A stretch of 64,000 bases of DNA from Nitrospiraceae bacterium (lineage in GTDB: Bacteria; Nitrospirota; Nitrospiria; Nitrospirales; Nitrospiraceae). A program made the translations under genes and the position numbers. Positions 307 through 33,657 of this stretch are shown piece after piece. Each line of letters opens with the position of its first letter. The first letter of the stretch is position 1. The stretch is from the NCBI GenBank assembly GCA_919902505.1, contig CAKKRE010000014.1, positions 1 to 64,000 of the forward strand, in the 5' to 3' direction. The notes below the pieces were generated by a model. The model worked only from the letters and a program-made list of their open reading frames with translations. It did not search any database and had not been told where the DNA came from.

Positions 307-414
307 ACGCAACGGTCTGCGCGACGCACCGGCAGGCGCGGAGCAACCGGCGGTTGTGCAGCAGCGGGGCGAGCGCGCAGCGCGAGAACCGTCTGCTGGA
401 ACCCGTTGTTGGAC
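307..414 (-). other. attC-like recombination site, degenerate
   Basis: On the minus strand the site opens with GTCCAAC (408-414, perfect RYYYAAC) and closes with GTTGCGT (307-313, a degenerate GTTRRRY). Next to the cores, CAACGG and CCGTTG can pair. It fills the gap between the stop of the methyltransferase gene (435) and the start of the epimerase gene (280). At 108 bp it is longer than the other sites here but within the known attC range. Confidence 0.45.
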
Positions 415-1256: not shown

Positions 1257-1290
1257 GTCCAACGCCGTCCGCTGCATGCCGTTGTTGGGC
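1257..1290 (-). other. attC remnant (shortened)
   Basis: On the minus strand it opens with GCCCAAC (1284-1290) and closes with GTTGGAC (1257-1263), both perfect core matches. Only 34 bp separate the outer ends, which is too short for a working attC. The first arm (AACGGCATGCAGCGGACGG) is typical and the second arm seems deleted. It lies between the start of the methyltransferase gene and the stop of the TPR gene. Confidence 0.45.
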
Positions 1291-3078: not shown

Positions 3079-3150
3079 GCCTAACGCCATAGCTCACCGG
3101 CGGCTTTGGAGCGCAGCGGAAAAGCCGTCCGGTGCAGCGCCTTGTTCGGC
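3079..3150 (-). other. attC recombination site
   Basis: This is the best-preserved site. On the minus strand it starts GCCGAAC (3144-3150) and ends GTTAGGC (3079-3085), 72 bp in total. The two arms, GCACCGGACGGCTTT and AAAGCCGCCGGTGAGC, pair with the unpaired extra bases typical of folded attC sites. It lies 12 bp after the stop of the FAD oxidoreductase gene. Confidence 0.75.
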
Positions 3151-4537: not shown

Positions 4538-4589
4538 GCCCAACGGCCCCGCGGCTCACCGGCAGGCGCGGTGCAGCCACTGGTTCGGG
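4538..4589 (-). other. attC recombination site
   Basis: On the minus strand the site runs from CCCGAAC (4583-4589) to GTTGGGC (4538-4544), 52 bp. GGCTGCACCG in the first arm pairs imperfectly with CGGTGAGCC in the second. It lies 20 bp after the stop of the amidinotransferase gene and just before the FAD oxidoreductase gene. Confidence 0.65.
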
Positions 4590-4609: not shown

Positions 4610-5569
4610 TTACCTGCACAAGCGTGTGCGCCCGCTCACCCCGCTTCGACGAATGGGAGCGGTTGCACACCTGAATGCGCCATCCAGCCGCGCGTGCCAA
4701 CTGAAGTTAAGAGGAAGAACTCGGAATCCCCGTTCCCGTAAACTCTGCTGTAAGTGAACGTGTCGTGACTGAACGATGATGGTCCTGGCATCTAGAGCCA
4801 AGACATTCGTTCCCAGTTCTTGGCGAGTGCGTGCATCAACTTCGATGAATTCATACGTATCAAGAGGCGGCGGCAACGGGTTTGCCAGCGACTCGCGATG
4901 AAGGATTCCCAGTCGAGGGCCAATCAGCGTCAGGCAACAATCCAGATGGAGAATCCCTGAAACAGCCAGCGGTACGGGTACGACCGTGACTGCCGCTCCC
5001 AATTGGCGTTGTAACCACTCCACGCCCTTCAAGTTGCTACCGTACTTGCCCACGCCCACGTAAAGGTACGGCAAATCTACGATCACATCGCCCCCTTCAA
5101 GAAAGATGTCGTCGGAGGAAACAGCAACGACGCGCGTGTGGTTGCCGGTCAAGGCGCTCAATAGCGCGTCGAGTCCGCGACGCTCTTTGCGGCGCATTCC
5201 GATTTGGAGCTGCCCGACAATCAGCGTGTCGCCGACCGCCATAATCGGGTCACGGGCAAACATTTGACCAAGCCCCGGCGGCTCTTCGGCCAATGGCGTG
5301 ATGGGAACCGGGCGATGCACGGTGCACCCATGCTCAAGAAGAATCTTTCGTAACGATTCCAGTTCGGCAACATACTTCTGGGTAATCCATGCAGGGACAC
5401 GACGGCCCTTGGCAAGCGTAGAGAGCATGGCTGCCGAAGCCCGTCGCCACCATGGGTGTACGGGTTCCAGTTCAATGGGGTGCCTTGCTGGAAAATACAA
5501 CTCGGGCGCGATGCCGAGCACAACTTCTTCCAGGCAAGACCACTCGTTGTGAACAGATATCTGCGTCAT
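4610..5569 (-). CDS. Amidinotransferase / guanidine-modifying enzyme family protein
   Basis: 319 residues of the pentein fold shared by arginine:glycine amidinotransferase, arginine deiminase and dimethylarginine dimethylaminohydrolase. Visible active-site motifs are MFARDP (Arg106, Asp107), LEGGD (Glu158, Asp161), HLD (His208, Asp210) and the catalytic Cys301 in FRCATAP. All residues needed for chemistry on a guanidino or amidine group are present, so it should be active; substrate and direction cannot be told. Start: ATG at 5569 with AGGAGAAA directly upstream. The frame stays open to 5719, but that stretch covers a gene remnant and a repeat. It has an attC site right after its stop, so it is a cassette gene. 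Confidence 0.82.
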   Translation of the reverse strand: MTQISVHNEWSCLEEVVLGIAPELYFPARHPIELEPVHPWWRRASAAMLSTLAKGRRVPAWITQKYVAELESLRKILLEHGCTVHRPVPITPLAEEPPGLGQMFARDPIMAVGDTLIVGQLQIGMRRKERRGLDALLSALTGNHTRVVAVSSDDIFLEGGDVIVDLPYLYVGVGKYGSNLKGVEWLQRQLGAAVTVVPVPLAVSGILHLDCCLTLIGPRLGILHRESLANPLPPPLDTYEFIEVDARTRQELGTNVLALDARTIIVQSRHVHLQQSLRERGFRVLPLNFSWHARLDGAFRCATAPIRRSGVSGRTRLCR

Positions 5570-5676
5570 TTTCTCCTGAAAACTTGCGGCGTGTTGCGTA
5601 AGAAGTAGGCGAACGGCCCAGCAGTTTGCCGGAAAGCGTGGGGGCCATTGAAGGTTGTGCCGCCGCCCTCTAGTCA

Positions 5677-5779
5677 CACGGGCCAATGGCACAGCGGCCT
5701 CCATCCGCGTGTCAGCCATCCGTCAGTTCAGCGCGGCGAATCCGCAACATCTGGTTGCCGCCCCGCTGAAACTCGTACG
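5677..5779. repeat. 103-bp direct repeat, copy 1
   Basis: Identical over 103 bases to 6479-6581, with a period of 802 bp. On the minus strand it holds the last codons of a methyltransferase gene, its stop codon, and about 35 bases after the stop that can form an imperfect hairpin. The PfpI-family gene lies between the two copies. Confidence 0.95.
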
Positions 5780-5807
5780 CTACCTGCGCAAGCACAACAG
5801 CAAACCC
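5712..5807 (-). pseudogene. C-terminal remnant of a methyltransferase gene
   Basis: 31 codons that end in the same ...RRAELTDG tail and stop codon as the intact methyltransferase at 6514-7212. The first part is diverged: the remnant reads GFAVVLAQVAYEF where the intact copy reads GFAVTLERVSYEF. An in-frame stop lies shortly before the similarity starts, and there is no start codon or ribosome site. It is what is left of a second copy of that gene, downstream of the PfpI-family gene. Confidence 0.75.
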
Positions 5808-5839
5808 TGTATCGAGGTCGCAGTGAGACTACGTGGTAG

Positions 5840-6409
5840 CTATGCCTTCCATCGGTACGGATAGTCCATTTGGGCGGCGATCCGCGAGCGGGCCTCCGCA
5901 CCCGCAAGTTTCTGCACAAGGTGGAGACCCACGTCAATCGCGGACGAGACCCCACCCGCCGTAACGAGATCCCCGTCATCGACGACTCGCTCTCGAACGA
6001 CCACCCCACAGTATCCCTGGAGCTCCGCATAGGCGTTCGGGTGGGTGGTCGCGCGACGGCCCCGAAGAAAACCCGCCGCCCCAAGAAGGAGGGCCCCGGT
6101 GCAGACCGACACCTTCAACCGCACCGAGTGCCCGGTCTTCAGCCAGTCGATGAAGGCAGGGTCATGTTGGAGAGTTCTCGTCCCAATCCCGCCTGGTACA
6201 AACAGCAGGTCAAACGCATCGAGCGGCTGTGCGACGGTATCCGCCACGATCCGGAGCCCTCGATCATCGACGACGTTATGGGTCATTGAGCAGATGCGCC
6301 ACGTGAAATCATCCATGATCTTCATGGACTTGAGACGCGTGACGGGATCGTACAACCCGATGAAATCCAGCGAGGTCATGCGATCGAAAACGACGAATGC
6401 GGCTTTCAT
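5840..6409 (-). CDS. DJ-1/PfpI family protein
   Basis: 189 residues, the usual length for a single-domain DJ-1/PfpI protein. The nucleophile elbow is SVCTGALLLGAAGFL with Cys103; an early acidic residue (Asp15 in LDFIGLYDPV) and the HPNAYAEL segment after the elbow fit the isonitrile hydratase-like and transcription-factor-like branch. It is cytoplasmic. Possible activities are isonitrile hydration, glyoxalase III or a regulatory role, and the sequence alone does not decide. Start: ATG at 6409 after AGGGGAG. It lies between two copies of a 103-bp direct repeat, as if it were inserted or duplicated as a unit. Confidence 0.82.
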   Translation of the reverse strand: MKAAFVVFDRMTSLDFIGLYDPVTRLKSMKIMDDFTWRICSMTHNVVDDRGLRIVADTVAQPLDAFDLLFVPGGIGTRTLQHDPAFIDWLKTGHSVRLKVSVCTGALLLGAAGFLRGRRATTHPNAYAELQGYCGVVVRERVVDDGDLVTAGGVSSAIDVGLHLVQKLAGAEARSRIAAQMDYPYRWKA

Positions 6410-6478
6410 CGCTCCCCTAATCTTTTACTGGCGTGATCTAATGTTGCAAAAGAGCCACGCACCTCAGCGACATGATTG

Positions 6479-6581
6479 CACGGGCCAATGGCACAGCGGC
6501 CTCCATCCGCGTGTCAGCCATCCGTCAGTTCAGCGCGGCGAATCCGCAACATCTGGTTGCCGCCCCGCTGAAACTCGTACG
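6479..6581. repeat. 103-bp direct repeat, copy 2
   Basis: Identical to 5677-5779. This copy includes the true 3' end and stop codon (6514-6516) of the intact methyltransferase gene. Past the left-hand end (6479) the two copies lose similarity at once; past the right-hand end they stay partly similar within the coding sequence. Confidence 0.95.
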
Positions 6582-7212
6582 ACACTCGCTCAAGCGTAAC
6601 CGCGAAGCCTGCGCCGCAGAACTCGGCAACGCCGGTTTCGACATACGGAGACCGCTGTCCACCCAATGTCAGTAACGGAAAGATTCGAACTTCTGAGGCG
6701 ACGCGGCACATCTCTCGAATGGCCGCACGATGGAACGCCTCGCCGAGCTGACCGGTGTACAGAAACAGCAAGTGGGAGCAGACCGCCAAGTCGAACGCCC
6801 CATCTGGGAATGGGAGCGTCGGGAGTTCGGCCTCAACATAGCGTCCGGCAGCCTTGCCTGCTTCAAAGTCCTCCAAGAACGCGTCCATCGCCTGCCTGCG
6901 GATTTGTCCCAACTTCTCGACGGACCCGATCTCGTCACCCCAGACGAACTCCGCGGCGTTCTTCCGCGTCTGCGCCAGGATCGTCTCGGAGGTAGCAGCA
7001 ATCCGCTCCCGGATCTGCATCGGCCCCCACCGGTAGATCGGATCGCACGAGACGACCCGAGTACCACGAGCCGTCGCCTCAGCGTTGAATGATGCAGGAC
7101 CATCGCCGCAGCCGACGATGGTGCGCGCGAGGTCGGCATCGGTGAGCCCGAACATCCGTCGATATTCGTCGAACGACCGGCCCCAGGGCACGATGTGATC
7201 CAGGGTAAACAT
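6514..7212 (-). CDS. SAM-dependent methyltransferase
   Basis: 232 residues. A short N-terminal helix region (SFDEYRRMFGLTDADLA) precedes motif I, IVGCGDGPASFN (residues ~33-44), and the motif II aspartate in VVSCDPIY. A FDLAVCSHLLFLY segment carries the motif IV position. This is a cytoplasmic class I methyltransferase of unknown acceptor; proteins with this layout are often annotated only as methyltransferase-domain proteins. Start: ATG at 7212, with a GTG one codon upstream and only a weak ribosome site. A duplicated tail of this gene persists at 5712-5807. The neighbours suggest a cassette gene. Confidence 0.78.
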   Translation of the reverse strand: MFTLDHIVPWGRSFDEYRRMFGLTDADLARTIVGCGDGPASFNAEATARGTRVVSCDPIYRWGPMQIRERIAATSETILAQTRKNAAEFVWGDEIGSVEKLGQIRRQAMDAFLEDFEAGKAAGRYVEAELPTLPFPDGAFDLAVCSHLLFLYTGQLGEAFHRAAIREMCRVASEVRIFPLLTLGGQRSPYVETGVAEFCGAGFAVTLERVSYEFQRGGNQMLRIRRAELTDG

Positions 7213-7231
7213 CACTTCAGTCGATCAGCAA

Positions 7232-7282
7232 GACCAACATACAGCCAAGCAGCGGGGGCGACAACGCCCATCCCGCTTGAGC
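7232..7282 (-). other. attC-like hairpin, degenerate cores
   Basis: A 51-bp element in the gap between two cassette genes. GCGGG and GGCG pair with CGCC and CCCGC around an ACAA loop, with bulged A and CAT bases, as in folded attC sites. The outer cores on the minus strand are GCTCAAG and GTTGGTC, each one or two bases off consensus. It could instead be a plain stem-loop. Confidence 0.4.
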
Positions 7283-7288
7283 GACATA

Positions 7289-7984
7289 TTAGACTGTGCC
7301 GCCAACGATCGCCTTAAAAAAAGCCGTCACCAATGGATGTGGCCTCTCAGGTGTGGAGCGTGTCTGTGGCACGAAGAGCGTCCCAATGAAAAACGCGTGG
7401 CCGGGATACTCAATGACACGGACTTCGCCCTCACTATCTGACCCGGAGATGTTCAGTGGTCCTCGCTTCAACTCATGAATGCAGTCCGGACTCACGCCGA
7501 AATTGCAGAAGTAGTGTTCCGTTGCGGATACACTCCCGTATATTGCCGCAACCTGAGACCCTGACACAAAACGCAGCCACATCTCGCGTCCAGCGAGCGA
7601 ACAAGCCAATGGCGAAATAAAGAGCTTTGAGGCGTATGGATTGTACTCGGCATGGTGCGCGTCCTTGAACCCCAGGACGTTGCGTGCGTATTCGAGAACG
7701 ATATGCTGGAATCCGCCACAAGTGCCAAAACACGGGATATTGTGTTCCCTCGCGTAACGAATCGCCCAGAGCGTGTTCTCCATGTTCTTGTATGGGCTTC
7801 CCGGCACAACCCAGAGGCCGGCGTACTGCTCAAACAGGTTTGGCTCGACCGCTGCCGTTGAAATCCAGTCCGCTGAGATATCCGCCTGCAGAAATGTTCG
7901 AGAATGCTCTATCGCGGCTTCAGTTGAAGCGTGAGGTGGATATGTTGGAGTGTATTCGCCAAGCAGAGCCACGCATTTACGCAT
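7289..7984 (-). CDS. CTP-synthase-like class I glutamine amidotransferase domain protein
   Basis: 231 residues, resembling only the C-terminal amidotransferase half of CTP synthase; no synthetase half is present. The nucleophile elbow is PCFGTCGGFQ (Cys89) and the oxyanion strand is VVPGSPYKNMENT. The distal motif reads YPGHAFFIGTLFVPQ: His196 is kept, but the usual catalytic Glu is Gln207. It is therefore either a changed amidohydrolase or a non-hydrolysing binding protein. Start: ATG at 7984; a TTG nine bases upstream is possible and the ribosome site is weak. Lies between attC-type sites at 7232-7282 and 8006-8068. Confidence 0.75.
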   Translation of the reverse strand: MRKCVALLGEYTPTYPPHASTEAAIEHSRTFLQADISADWISTAAVEPNLFEQYAGLWVVPGSPYKNMENTLWAIRYAREHNIPCFGTCGGFQHIVLEYARNVLGFKDAHHAEYNPYASKLFISPLACSLAGREMWLRFVSGSQVAAIYGSVSATEHYFCNFGVSPDCIHELKRGPLNISGSDSEGEVRVIEYPGHAFFIGTLFVPQTRSTPERPHPLVTAFFKAIVGGTV

Positions 7985-8005: not shown

Positions 8006-8068
8006 GCCTCACGCACCGCGAACCGGCGCGCGGCTGGTGGCGCGTCCGTGTTGAGCGCAGTGTTAGGC
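8006..8068 (-). other. attC recombination site
   Basis: On the minus strand it opens with a perfect GCCTAAC (8062-8068) and closes with GTGAGGC (8006-8012, one base off GTTAGGC), 63 bp. The stop codon TAA of the upstream membrane-protein gene lies inside the first core. Inner arms are GCGCTCAACACGGACG and GCCGGTTCGCGGTGCG. Confidence 0.65.
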
Positions 8069-8753: not shown

Positions 8754-8802
8754 GCCTCACGCACAGCTAACCGGCACGTCCGAGTTGAGCGTGAAGTGAG
8801 AG
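8754..8802 (-). other. attC recombination site, shortened and diverged
   Basis: Ends with GTGAGGC (8754-8760), the same altered core as the site at 8006-8068. The two sites share GCCTCACGCAC, AACCGGC and GTTGAGCG in the same order; this one has about 14 fewer bases in the loop side and a decayed first core (CTCTCAC). Its sequence supplies the stop codon of the frameshifted brnA. Confidence 0.55.
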
Positions 8803-18915: not shown

Positions 18916-21900
18916 ATGCATCCGCTGCTGAAAAGACAACTGAACCGCATCGGGCTGGAGGAGGCCACCGCGCCCCTATCGGTCGACAGCTGGCAACAGC
19001 TCCTCGAACGGGTGAGCCAGAGCTATCTGGAGTCCGATCAGGGGCGCGAACTCCTGGAGCGCTCCATCGCCCTATCCTCGCATGAAATGCAGGAGTTGAA
19101 CGAGCAACTCCGCCGCACGTCGGAAAGCCAACTTGCCGGGGAACGGGACAAGTTGCAGACGGTCCTCCGCTCCATCGGCGACGGGCTCTGCGTAGTCGAT
19201 GGACAGTGGAACATCGTGCTGCTGAATCCCGAGGGCGAACGTCTGTGGGGTCTGACCGAAAAAGAGGTCGTCGGTCGCCGGCTTCACGAGATGATTTCCT
19301 TGTCCTACGGCACGAAGCTTACGGAACCGATCTTCACCCAGATGCTGCTGGACGATACCGCGCAGGGAGGCTCGTTCCGGACCGATGACGGGTTGCTGAC
19401 CTCGATCACCGGGCGCTCGTTTCCTGTGTCGTGTGTCCTGGCACCCATCCTCCAGGAGAGCCACACGGCCGGAGCCGTTCTCGTGTTTCGCGACATTACG
19501 GACCGCAAACAGACGGAGGACATCCGTCGTCGCACGGAAAGTTTGCTGCGGCGACAACAGACCACCCTCCTTGAGCTGACACGCAACAGCGTCATCCAAA
19601 GCGGCCTCCTGGAACCGGCTTTGCAGGAAATTACCCGCGCGACGGCAGTGACCCTCGGAGTGAGCCGAACCAGCATCTGGATCTTGAGTGAAGACCACGG
19701 CTCAATCCGATGCAAAGATCTCTACGAGTCTTCCCCGAACACCCATTCATCGGGGGGTGAACTCCAGGCAGCCAGTTTTCCGGGATACTTCCGCGAACTG
19801 CTCTCCGAACGTGTAATCGACGCCTTCGATGCGAGAAGCGACCCTCGGACCTGCGAGTTCACCTCCAGCTATCTCGAACCCCTCGGGGTCACGTCCATGC
19901 TGGATATCCCCATTCGTTTCAAAGGCAAACTCGTCGGGGTGCTCTGCATCGAACAGATCGGCCTCCCTCGCCACTGGATGCTGGAGGAACAGCAGTTCGG
20001 CCATGCGATCGCGTCTCTGGTATCGCTAGCCCTCGAAGCCGTCGAACGTCTCCACGCGGAAGGAGAGCTGCGCAAGAGCGAAGGCCGGACCAGATTGATC
20101 ATCGATACCGCACTGAGCGCGGTGATTGGGATGGACGAGCGAGGCCTTATCATCGGCTGGAATTCGCAGGCCGAGCAGATCTTTGGCTGGACCCGCCAGG
20201 AAGCCCTCGGCCGTGCGATGACAGACACCATCATTCCGCATGCGCACCGCGAGGCGCACCAACGCGGGCTTGAGCGGTTCCTCAAGACCGGTGACGGCCC
20301 GGTCTTGAACAAACGGATCGAAATCACGGCGCTGCGACGCGACGGCAGAGAATTTCCGATCGAGCTGGCCATCACCCCGCTCCGTATCGAGAATGCCTAT
20401 ACCTTCACCGCCTTCGTGGTGGATATTTCAGAACGAAAAGAGGCGGAAGAGGCTTTGCGCACGAGCGAAGCACGGCTGACGATGACCGTGCAGGGCTCGC
20501 ACATCGGGATCTGGGACTGGAACCTCACCTCAGGCGCAGTCTATTTCTCTCCACAATGGAAGAACCAACTCGGCTACGACGACACCACGCTCTCGAATAA
20601 CTTCGACGAATGGCGGACGCGGATCCATCCTGAAGACCAGCCGTTCGTTCAGGAAGTCGTCCAAACCTGTCTGGACGGCCAACGATCCCAGTTCGAACTT
20701 GAACATCGCCTTCGACATCGAGACGGCTCCTATCGATGGATCCTGTCCCGCGGCAGTCTGATTCGAGATATCTATGGCGTGACCGCGCGCATGGTCGGCA
20801 TCCACATCGATACCACCGACCGGAAGCAGACCGAGCAGGAACTCCGTGCCGCGAAGGAAGCCGCAGAAGCCGCCAGCAAAGCGAAGAGCGAGTTTCTGGC
20901 CAATATGAGTCACGAAATCCGCACTCCCATGAACGGAGTATTGGGCACAACCGAACTGCTGCTCAACAGTGCGCTGACGGACAAACAGCGACATCTCGCG
21001 TCGACCGTGCATCGTTCCGGAAGAACGCTGCTGGCCATCATCAACGACATTCTGGACTATTCAAAAATCGAAGCCGGGAAACTCGATTTGGAATGCGTCG
21101 ACTTCGACCTGCTCCCGGTGCTCGAAGAATCGCTCGAGCTGTTCGGCGAAGCGGCCCGTCGGAAACAGCTTCGTCTTTCTCAACACATCGACGACGCGGT
21201 CCCGCGCTACCTCAAGGGCGACCCGGTCCGGTTCCGCCAGATCCTCATGAATCTGCTGAGCAACGCGATCAAGTTTACCGAAACAGGGGGCGTCTCCTTG
21301 AGCGCCGAGTATGTGGAAGGAACCACCACCCAGGCCCTGTTGCGCTTCGCCGTGACCGACACCGGCATCGGCATTTCCCCGGCGGCCAAGTCACGCATCT
21401 TCGACGCATTCTCTCAGGCGGACGGGTCGACCACCAGACGATACGGCGGGACCGGTCTCGGCCTTTCCATTGCCAAGCAGTTGGTTGGACTCATGGGTGG
21501 TACCATCACCGTGGACAGCACACCGGGAAGCGGCTCCACCTTCGCGTTTACGACGCGGTTCGATCTGCAACCCCTAGGGTCGGGCCTCTCAACGAAGCTC
21601 GCACCGTATGTGCAATGGGCAGAGCCCCTTGTCTCGTCCGGACAGACGGGCGACACCCCACGCCCCCACGTACCTGAAGCGGGCGCAGCAGCGCCGAGCC
21701 CCAAACAGAGCGGGCGAATTCTGCTGGCCGAAGACAGTCCCGTGAATCGCGAAGTGGCCGTCGGCATGTTGGAGCAACTGGGCTATGAAGTCGAGGTGGC
21801 GGAAAACGGCCGGCAGGCCCTCGCGGCCGCCGAGCGCGACCGTTTCGACATCGTGCTGATGGACTGTCAGATGCCTGAAATGGACGGGCTCACGGCCACC

Positions 21901-22548: not shown

Positions 22549-23792
22549 ACCCGCTGATACCAGGACGAGCACCCTATGCGCTGATTACGGACGACGATAT
22601 CATCATCCGTATGTTCGCTCGAGAGGCACTGGAGCAAGCCGGGTGGGTGGTCGAGGAGGCTCAAAACGGAATTGAGGCCTGCGAACTTTTTCAGAAGTGT
22701 CCGCCGGACGTGGTGCTGCTCGACGTCATGATGCCCGGGATGGATGGGTTCGCCACCTGCGCAGCATTACGCCGGCTGCCGGGCGGCGAACATACCCCCA
22801 TTCTTATCATGACCGGACTGGACGACTTTGAGTCGATTACAAAGGCCTACGATGCCGGCGCGACCGATTTTATCCTCAAACCGCTGAATGCGATGCTGCT
22901 GACCCACAGGATTCGTTATATGGTGCGCGCCGACCAGGTGCTCCAGGAACTCCGGGAGAGTCAGGCTACGCTCACGCAAGCCCGCGATGCCGCGATTGAG
23001 GGCGCCCGACTCAAATCCGAATTCCTCGCCACCATGAGTCACGAAATCCGTACCCCCATGAACGGCGTCCTGGGCATGACAGATTGGTTGCTGGACACGC
23101 CCCTCACCGCCGAACAGCTTGACTGCGCCCAGACGATCCGCTCATCGGGCGATGCCTTGATGGTCATCATCAACGACATTCTGGACTTCTCCAAAATCGA
23201 ATCCGGGAAACTGTCCCTTGAACTGCTGGACTTCGACTTGCCCACATTTCTCGACCGTGTTCTGGCACTCTTTGGAGAACGAGCACAACGGAAGGGTTTG
23301 TTGCTGACTTCGCGGATCGCCGAGGACGTGCCAAGCGGCTTGTGTGGTGACCCGGCGAGACTGCAACAGATCCTCAGCAATTTGCTCGCGAACGCCATCA
23401 AGTTCAGTGAGCACGGATCCGTCTCCGTCCTGGTGGAACTCGATCAGCGACCAGCCGAACAAGGCCTTGAGTTTCCTGCGACTAGGTATGGCGACCTGTC
23501 GGCGCAGCAGGAGCGGGTGACGCATATCCGATTTTCCGTCTCGGACAATGGAATCGGAATTGAACCCAGCGCCTTTTCAAAATTATTCCAGCCGTTTGTG
23601 CAGGCTGACGGGTCCACCACCAGGAAATATGGCGGAACCGGGTTGGGACTGGCCATCTGCAAACAGCTTGTTGAATTGATGGGTGGGCATATCGGAGCGG
23701 AAAGCGAACCAGGGTCCGGTTCCGTCTTTCGATTCACCGTACCGCTTCAGCAACAATTGCCGAACAGCCTCTCCACTCGACAGGCGGCCTGA
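22545..23792 (+). CDS. Receiver-histidine kinase (REC-HisKA-HATPase)
   Basis: 415 residues. An N-terminal receiver (~11-125; Asp60 in VLLDVMMPGMDG, Lys112 in LKP) is followed by a coiled linker, HisKA (~157-225, His166 in TMSHEIRTPMNG) and HATPase (~265-400, with DNGIGI and [11 protein letters not shown]). It has no other sensor domain and no membrane segment, so its kinase may be set by phosphotransfer from the Hpt domain of the gene before it. Start: ATG at 22545, overlapping the upstream stop by four bases. The three genes FIST, hybrid kinase and this one form a tightly spaced signalling operon. Confidence 0.92.
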   Translation: MNPLIPGRAPYALITDDDIIIRMFAREALEQAGWVVEEAQNGIEACELFQKCPPDVVLLDVMMPGMDGFATCAALRRLPGGEHTPILIMTGLDDFESITKAYDAGATDFILKPLNAMLLTHRIRYMVRADQVLQELRESQATLTQARDAAIEGARLKSEFLATMSHEIRTPMNGVLGMTDWLLDTPLTAEQLDCAQTIRSSGDALMVIINDILDFSKIESGKLSLELLDFDLPTFLDRVLALFGERAQRKGLLLTSRIAEDVPSGLCGDPARLQQILSNLLANAIKFSEHGSVSVLVELDQRPAEQGLEFPATRYGDLSAQQERVTHIRFSVSDNGIGIEPSAFSKLFQPFVQADGSTTRKYGGTGLGLAICKQLVELMGGHIGAESEPGSGSVFRFTVPLQQQLPNSLSTRQAA

Positions 23793-33042: not shown

Positions 33043-33657
33043 CTATGCGTGTCCACCCTTGGATAGGGGCGACCGCAACACACGAAAGGGACTCGGCCCT
33101 TGCTCCGGCGGGCAGCCGCAGCGACGCTCATTGAGATTCTGGCCGCACTGCGGACAGAGACCACGGCAATCTTCCCGACATAACGGCTGCATCGGAGCAG
33201 CCAGGATCACCTGCTCGCGCACCATTGGCACCAGGGCGAGGTGCTCGCCCTGATACAGATAGACTTCGTCCGCCTCGTCCGCCTCGTCCGCCTCTTCAAC
33301 AGGCTCAACCGGCTGGGGACCGCGTCTCGGCCCTCTCCGGCCCTGTTCCGCCGGAGCCGGCTTGGTCGCCAGGCCCGCCTGCGAAAGATACTCGGCATAG
33401 AGATTCACAAAGAGCGGATCGGAATATTCCGTGAGGCAGCGGACACACTGACGGATCGCCGTCCCTTCCAACGTGCCGGTCACCGTGATCGGACCGTCGT
33501 GTTGGACAAGTTCCAGTTGAATCGTAAGCGGTCCCTCAAACTTCTCTTCCGGCTCATCCAAGCCGAGTTCAGGCCCCGTGGCCGTGCACGACAAGGACAG
33601 TCCTTCTGGGTCGATATCGACAATCGCTGGCTTGAGCGTATCCATCAGCACCGTCAT
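33043..33657 (-). CDS. DUF177 (YceD-type) protein
   Basis: About 204 residues from ATG 33657; ATG 33645 is an equal choice and neither has a good ribosome site. The family core is visible: GTLEGTAIRQCVRCLTEY and, near the end, CREDCRGLCPQCGQNLN, two cysteine pairs that could hold zinc. YceD-type genes precede rpmF across bacteria and affect 23S rRNA metabolism in Escherichia coli and plants; the mechanism is unclear. A run of acidic residues (EEADEADEADEVY) is coded by a 9-base tandem repeat. Confidence 0.85.
   Translation of the reverse strand: MTVLMDTLKPAIVDIDPEGLSLSCTATGPELGLDEPEEKFEGPLTIQLELVQHDGPITVTGTLEGTAIRQCVRCLTEYSDPLFVNLYAEYLSQAGLATKPAPAEQGRRGPRRGPQPVEPVEEADEADEADEVYLYQGEHLALVPMVREQVILAAPMQPLCREDCRGLCPQCGQNLNERRCGCPPEQGPSPFRVLRSPLSKGGHA
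33267..33293. repeat. Three tandem 9-base repeats inside the DUF177 gene
   Basis: Three exact copies of CGTCCGCCT on the plus strand, coding for repeated Glu-Ala-Asp on the minus strand. Being a multiple of three bases, copy-number change would lengthen or shorten the acidic linker without a frameshift. Confidence 0.85.

Follow-up and report, generated by a model that had tools for sequence, protein, structure and literature searches.

A PfpI-family gene between perfect 103-bp direct repeats in a chromosomal integron cassette array of a Nitrospira relative: possible cassette fusion and gene conversion

Elements that integrate into the 3' end of a gene are bounded by attL and attR, which form direct repeats, and the resulting layout consists of an intact gene with its tail, the element and a second copy of the tail. 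Several processes that alter cassettes in integrons are described in the literature. Cassettes can become fused when part of the first attC is lost (PMC4670013). Slippage or cleavage by SbcCD has been proposed in a review to explain the loss of attC structures that are too stable (PMC8946536), and gene conversion has been proposed among paralogous cassettes (PMC1382264). Integrase-free loss of small cassettes between similar sites, probably by slippage, is described for cassettes of 60 bp and about 400 bp with sites that were 83% alike (PMC5371416). In the Nitrospira group, two CALIN were reported in Candidatus Nitrospira inopinata with IntegronFinder 2.0 (PMC9024848).

The stretch of DNA analysed here (the window, 64 kb) starts with the first base of contig C14 in a draft genome of 4.24 Mb in 84 contigs. 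The initial annotation described a PfpI-family gene in the window that is bracketed by perfect 103-bp direct repeats with a period of 802 bp, and base-by-base comparison of 5677-5779 with 6479-6581 confirmed this description (103/103 identical, direct orientation, spacing 802). A chance origin of the identity is excluded (P ~3e-59 at 27% background identity). The repeat and its neighbours comprise the following features.

6514-7215, minus strand: MTa, intact class I methyltransferase cassette gene, 233 codons (open reading frame; Pfam Methyltransf_11, 27.9 bits)
6479-6581, minus strand: repeat copy 2, comprising the final 21-22 codons of MTa, its stop codon and the following 35 nt; equals 5677-5779
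6428-6441, minus strand: 5' end of the PfpI cassette (TTAGAT..., corresponding in the alignment to GTTAGAT... in G005); the portion of an attC R' box that moves together with the following cassette
5840-6409, minus strand: DJ-1/PfpI family gene, 189 codons (Pfam PF01965, 80.6 bits)
5812-5829, minus strand: what remains of the PfpI cassette's attC, its left half (R'' and L''), from alignment with the complete G005 attC
5780-5809, minus strand: putative diverged methyltransferase tail, remnant of MTb (20/30 nt in register, P ~7e-6; not identical to MTa)
5677-5779, minus strand: repeat copy 1, a methyltransferase tail that was probably homogenised, stop and 35 nt beyond; equals 6479-6581
4610-5569, minus strand: arginine-deiminase/dimethylargininase-like (ADI-like) gene, the next cassette (Pfam ADI, 48 bits)

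Each copy of the repeat contains the last codons of a methyltransferase frame, the stop codon TGA (6514-6516 in MTa) and the 35 nt beyond it, as the initial annotation had it. The frame in copy 1, counted there as a remnant of 31 codons, is a start-less remnant of about 31-34 codons. The pair was stretched by the repeat finder to 133 nt at 92%, because the identical part is adjoined by 30 nt that match at 20 positions, with register and reading frame unchanged. These 30 nt (5780-5809) lie beyond the edge of copy 1 and align in frame with the neighbour of the other copy in MTa; copy 1 is therefore not simply a copy of the MTa tail. Identity drops to background below 5677 (14/37, then 8/40) and is also at background above 5809.

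The repeat was found at just two places in its own genome, together with a weak 42-nt match (83%) on contig C27 that sits in a chromosomal methyltransferase fragment. It was absent from every relative searched (395 genomes of the phylum, own included), so the situation named in the initial annotation, in which all relatives share both copies, does not apply. The post-stop part of the repeat had no match in the other genomes of this set. An empty site was sought through the ADI-like cassette in the same 395 genomes, of which 19 matched; outside the own genome the matches were attC parts or pieces of 26-42 nt, and no ADI cassette was found. The 201-bp stretch around copy 1 gave no match in phages or in plasmids in distant mode, Rfam and tRNA scans of the 64-kb window gave 0 matches, and the locus was named in no title or abstract opening in the literature searched. 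Elsewhere in the window, two imperfect direct repeats (20889-21125 and 23018-23254, 73-76%, 2129 bp apart) look like tandem signalling genes, judging by their sequence.

The region belongs to a chromosomal integron cassette array. The first 9 kb contain nine genes, all on the minus strand (ORF calls, Pfam), in the order short protein, membrane protein, CTP-synthase-like GATase, MTa, PfpI, ADI-like, FAD oxidase, TPR and UbiE-like methyltransferase. The short first protein was read as CopG/BrnA-like and has no family match. The likely start of the ADI-like gene is the ATG at 5569 after AGGAG; a longer frame from 5719 begins inside repeat copy 1. A strict-box attC scan of the minus strand found 8006-8068 alone, and a looser box scan, which gave many false sites in coding DNA, was used solely for choosing candidates. 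An attC covariance model was built from nine sites in this genome and in related ones (11 candidates were aligned, two were dropped and one was re-cut by eye) that share an R''/R' stem followed by a second stem with one unpaired base. The model was run with filters off and gave eight matches with E<=1 in the window, seven of them on the minus strand within the first 9.1 kb; excluding the training site, the count is 6/7 (P ~8e-7). The single match outside this part lies at 33466-33507 (16.9 bits). The minus-strand matches are at or near gene borders; one is strong, and the others in the array are weak or partial.

8754-8802, minus strand: weak attC-like site upstream of the membrane-protein gene (12.2 bits, E 0.56)
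8006-8068, minus strand: weak attC-like site before the GATase cassette (13.4 bits, E 0.26)
7232-7294, minus strand: attC between the CTP-synthase-like GATase and MTa genes (18.7 bits, E 0.008)
4538-4589, minus strand: partial attC between the ADI-like and FAD genes (20.3 bits); right half shared at 88-93% identity with three attC copies in the G017 array
3079-3150, minus strand: canonical attC between the FAD-oxidase and TPR genes (69.4 bits; found by the box rule and itself a training row of the model)
1257-1290, minus strand: weak attC match (12 to 15 bits)
341-414, minus strand: weak attC-like site at the contig start (14.8 bits, E 0.1)

The site at 7232-7294 shows 79% identity over 57 nt to an attC on contig C79 (34.7 bits). 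An attC would be expected after MTa and after copy 1, and none was recognised there (best 5.8 bits, gene strand, in 5560-6620 outside the PfpI gene). This leaves the original boundaries of the cassettes uncertain on these two sides; either the two sites have decayed or the boundaries differ from those read here.

A full-length integron integrase is encoded on contig C65, not on C14 (TIGR02249, 462 bits against a cut-off of 265); in 14 control genomes this family matched every time and never above the cut-off. Across the genome, 18 attC matches with E<=1 are distributed over contigs C14, C65, C62, C20, C3, C67, C79, C51 and C21. The array is split over contigs, C14 starts inside it, and several pieces stop at contig ends. 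Cassettes are shared with other genomes in other orders; the PfpI gene, for example, occurs in C14, G005:C28 and G279:C174 with differing neighbours.

Other pieces of integrons were observed in this and related genomes. On C65 (L128 11856-13890), the integrase, the next gene and an attC lie on the same strand and the integrase reads towards the array, a layout described for Treponema and not the usual divergent one. On contig C62 (L130 12380-12763; G000:C62:42358-42735), an integrase end of 127 residues precedes a cassette array that contains attC sites; this end shares its last residues with the C65 integrase, which points to a second or a split integron. Two loci from two genera, L146 (G000:C3:98000-107195) and L190 (G279:C174), have cassettes in common (83% identity over 586 bp and 70% over 686 bp). 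An array with unusually long attC sites lies behind a 475-residue integrase frame at L137 (G017:C181). The right halves of these sites are also present in many genomes of the family, and in the window they occur at 4542-4585 and 320-363.

The PfpI gene forms an independent cassette. Its counterpart on G005:C28 is 79% identical in DNA over 5812-6425, and nothing else of the 4.7-kb query matched on that contig. The G005 cassette starts with GTTAGAT and terminates in a complete attC of 61.6 bits, which was among the nine sites used to train the model and whose folding is well beyond that of shuffled versions (z -4.5). No methyltransferase match was found in the 12-kb G005 stretch around it. In the window, the base preceding TTAGAT at the cassette start is A where G is expected. 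Alignment with G005 places the join to the methyltransferase tail inside the PfpI attC. The left half (5812-5829) is kept, whereas the right half was not found (best -0.5 bits with the attC model, gene strand, 5760-5845), and such partial loss of the first attC is a feature of fused cassettes. The proposal in the initial annotation that a PfpI cassette had carried the tail along does not agree with these observations, since the G005 cassette ends in its own attC without a methyltransferase and the join in the window lies within that attC. The two PfpI proteins share 80% amino-acid identity, and the nucleotide differences fall on the three codon positions as 25/15/78, which points to purifying selection on the gene. 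A third copy occurs at a contig end in G279 (79.5% identity over 176 residues); that contig has two cassettes in common with C3 of this genome, and the attC model found no site on its PfpI stretch. A methyltransferase start fragment follows directly after this PfpI gene, but it is of another branch (66% to L073) and therefore only suggestive.

The best relatives of MTa show 63-64% identity. In G010, a relative with 51% identity forms a cassette whose attC directly follows the stop codon (L013, 61.9 bits). From 67 loci with methyltransferase relatives, 36 were given to the attC model, with one match at E<=0.1 (L057, 5' of the gene); a further set of 31 loci (13 PfpI, 18 methyltransferase) gave three matches at E<=1, namely L013, L102 and L121, the last being the locus in the window. 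The chromosomal methyltransferase on C27 (L131 7027-7335; G000:C27:35026-35334) is carried by many genomes of the genus; only its last 103 residues are left, these are 84% identical to L018 over residues 125-227, and the N-terminal half was not found in 16 kb. A distant cassette-borne relative is intact.

About 11 codons behind the broken attC read TGFAVVLAQVA, compared with AGFAVTLERVS in MTa. In a family profile of 79 distinct relatives (blocks of >85% identity or without YE[FL]Q were left out, and rows were dropped from the tail comparisons if the tail ended before query residue 215 or 220), this 11-residue block scored 11.5 bits, a value reached by 10 of 100,098 six-frame blocks of the window; MTa scored 15.9 bits and the family median is 21.9. 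The nucleotide and profile tests depend on each other, and neither goes much beyond 1e-4 when the choice of length is allowed for. From this sequence similarity, 5780-5809 is taken as probable methyltransferase homology. MTb is known from these roughly 11 diverged codons alone, and neither a complete MTb nor the ancestral cassette order was found in any genome.

Identity switches sharply at 5779/5780, from 20/30 to 103/103. The probability of 103 unchanged sites is ~7e-19 at the divergence of the 30-nt stretch and ~4e-10 at 19% divergence. Copy 1 is hence a mosaic, in which either the final 103 bp of a diverged tail were overwritten or the opposite took place. A conversion tract would be expected to have lower-identity homology at its edges; such homology lies on one side of the repeat, and the other side has none. 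The initial annotation had offered a duplicated methyltransferase of which the tail remained. A methyltransferase tail in a cassette array and a recombination that made the tails identical agree with this idea, but a plain duplicate is less likely than the tail of a diverged homologue that was later homogenised. The event had also been called recent. This is weakly implied by the identity, but 103 unchanged sites make a short clock, and conversion would have reset it.

The explanation preferred here, to which an even chance of being correct is given, is that a deletion fused PfpI to a diverged methyltransferase tail and that gene conversion then equalised the two tails in a decaying integron array. 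The former array would have contained, in minus-strand 5' to 3' order, methyltransferase a, PfpI, methyltransferase b and the ADI-like gene, each as a cassette, so that the tail now joined to PfpI would have been the next cassette. A deletion from the loop of the folded PfpI attC into the last part of methyltransferase b, by slippage or by hairpin cleavage at attC, would have left PfpI with the left half of its attC joined to the tail of methyltransferase b as a fused cassette. A join at the attC loop would fit the loss of a too stable attC structure. Tails in direct orientation 0.8 kb apart are an arrangement that suits RecA. RecA-type homologous recombination without crossing over (gene conversion) could then have erased the differences over 103 bp, with 30 bp of the former divergence left beside the join; the conversion may be placed after the deletion. 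Under this explanation the 103-bp repeat would be a scar and a RecA substrate and not an integrase site. RecA recombination between the copies could also remove the 802-bp unit together with PfpI.

The initial annotation had further suggested that the post-stop part folds as a bulged hairpin and may be the recombination site itself. By folding and by the attC model, this candidate is not supported as a recombination site or as an attC: its folding z is -0.2 (76/200 shuffles were as good), the attC model reaches at best 3.8 bits on the gene strand compared with 69.4 for 3079-3150, and attC-like R''/R' and L''/L' pairing arms were not recognised. The entire 103-nt repeat folds with a z of -4.0, and one of 250 random 103-nt windows reaches -3.9. 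Its strong stem lies in the coding tail (TTCAGCG...CGCTGAA; positions 5726-5772 and 6528-6574). The attC model recognises this stem with its inner part only, scoring 5.3 bits on the gene strand and 7.4 bits on the opposite one. This coding-tail hairpin may have helped breakage. The exact 44-nt hairpin pattern had 0 occurrences in viral contigs.

Four other explanations were weighed against cassette fusion followed by gene conversion. A plain short duplication, in which template switching, or a tandem duplication later shortened by deletion, placed a single copy of the 103-bp MTa tail behind PfpI and 5780-5809 resembles MTa by chance, has the advantage that perfect identity calls for no second gene and that identity is at background below 5677 and above 5809. 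It is nevertheless unlikely, given the 20/30 in-register and in-frame matches right at the edge of the copy and the family-like residues in 5780-5809. An artefact of assembly, such as a chimera in which two strains are joined at a shared 103 bp, could be suspected in a draft genome of 84 contigs in which several array pieces end at contig ends. With two copies only, however, the order A-repeat-B-repeat-C has one solution, and the sequence is unique in the attC half on one side as well as in the diverged 30 nt, so that the probability of an artefact is small.

Insertion of an 802-bp circle, an excised fused cassette composed of PfpI, a methyltransferase tail and the attC of the latter, by homologous recombination in the MTa tail would produce two hybrid tails. 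The period equals one circle starting and ending at the same place, the cassette start TTAGAT precedes PfpI, and a single crossover would derive the diverged 30 nt from the circle. On the other hand, 103 bp of identity between circle and target would be required beforehand, which saves no step; neither a free circle nor an empty site was seen, and the ADI-like cassette was found nowhere else in the 395 genomes beyond attC parts and short pieces. This explanation is considered quite improbable. A bolder version of it is slightly less probable still, namely that the circle entered the array through RecA at a gene tail, without integrase action at attI or attC; the 802-bp unit would then be exactly one fused cassette and the shared tail a portable homology arm. 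If this were true and general, cassettes with a broken attC would still be exchangeable between arrays through paralogous gene tails. Least probable, and to be regarded as very improbable, is the action of IntI at a secondary site, with the G of the R' box of the PfpI attC joined to G^T in the methyltransferase tail (G^TACGAG, 5778/5777). The identical stretch does start one base ahead of such a GT, but the box is GTACGAG and not GTTRRRY. The right half of the PfpI attC that would then be hidden in 5780-5809 was not supported, with 6/8 pairs to the left half (equalled by 1,887 of 5,000 shuffles) and -0.9 bits over the span in the attC model.

With cassette fusion and gene conversion as the preferred reading, the locus is largely explained as an ordinary and familiar kind of array decay and recombination that is well preserved. 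It gives a concrete example of how a cassette may become locked in a sedentary integron, since with the hairpin site lost the exit would depend on ordinary recombination between the flanking repeats only. It also documents an integron with an integrase and scattered arrays in a Nitrospira relative. The layout is that of elements bounded by attL and attR, with an intact gene and its tail, an intervening segment and a second copy of the tail; it differs from them in that only PfpI and no recombinase lies between the copies and that the homology at the edge is that of a diverged methyltransferase. The fused blaGES-1/aacA4 cassettes of class 1 integrons, with a truncated first attC, resemble this locus in that partial loss of the first attC joins the next cassette (PMC4670013). 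Here the second member is just a gene tail within a 103-bp direct repeat, and the array is chromosomal and belongs to a Nitrospira relative. Recombination between paralogous cassettes was proposed to homogenise them in Vibrio arrays; that proposal concerns non-coding cassettes and 59-be sites, whereas one sharp 103-bp tract with a diverged edge is found here (PMC1382264). Clusters of attC sites in the Nitrospira group are common to this genome and to the CALIN and sedentary chromosomal integrons treated with IntegronFinder 2.0, and compared with the CALIN of Candidatus Nitrospira inopinata described there, this genome adds a full-length integron integrase on another contig (PMC9024848).
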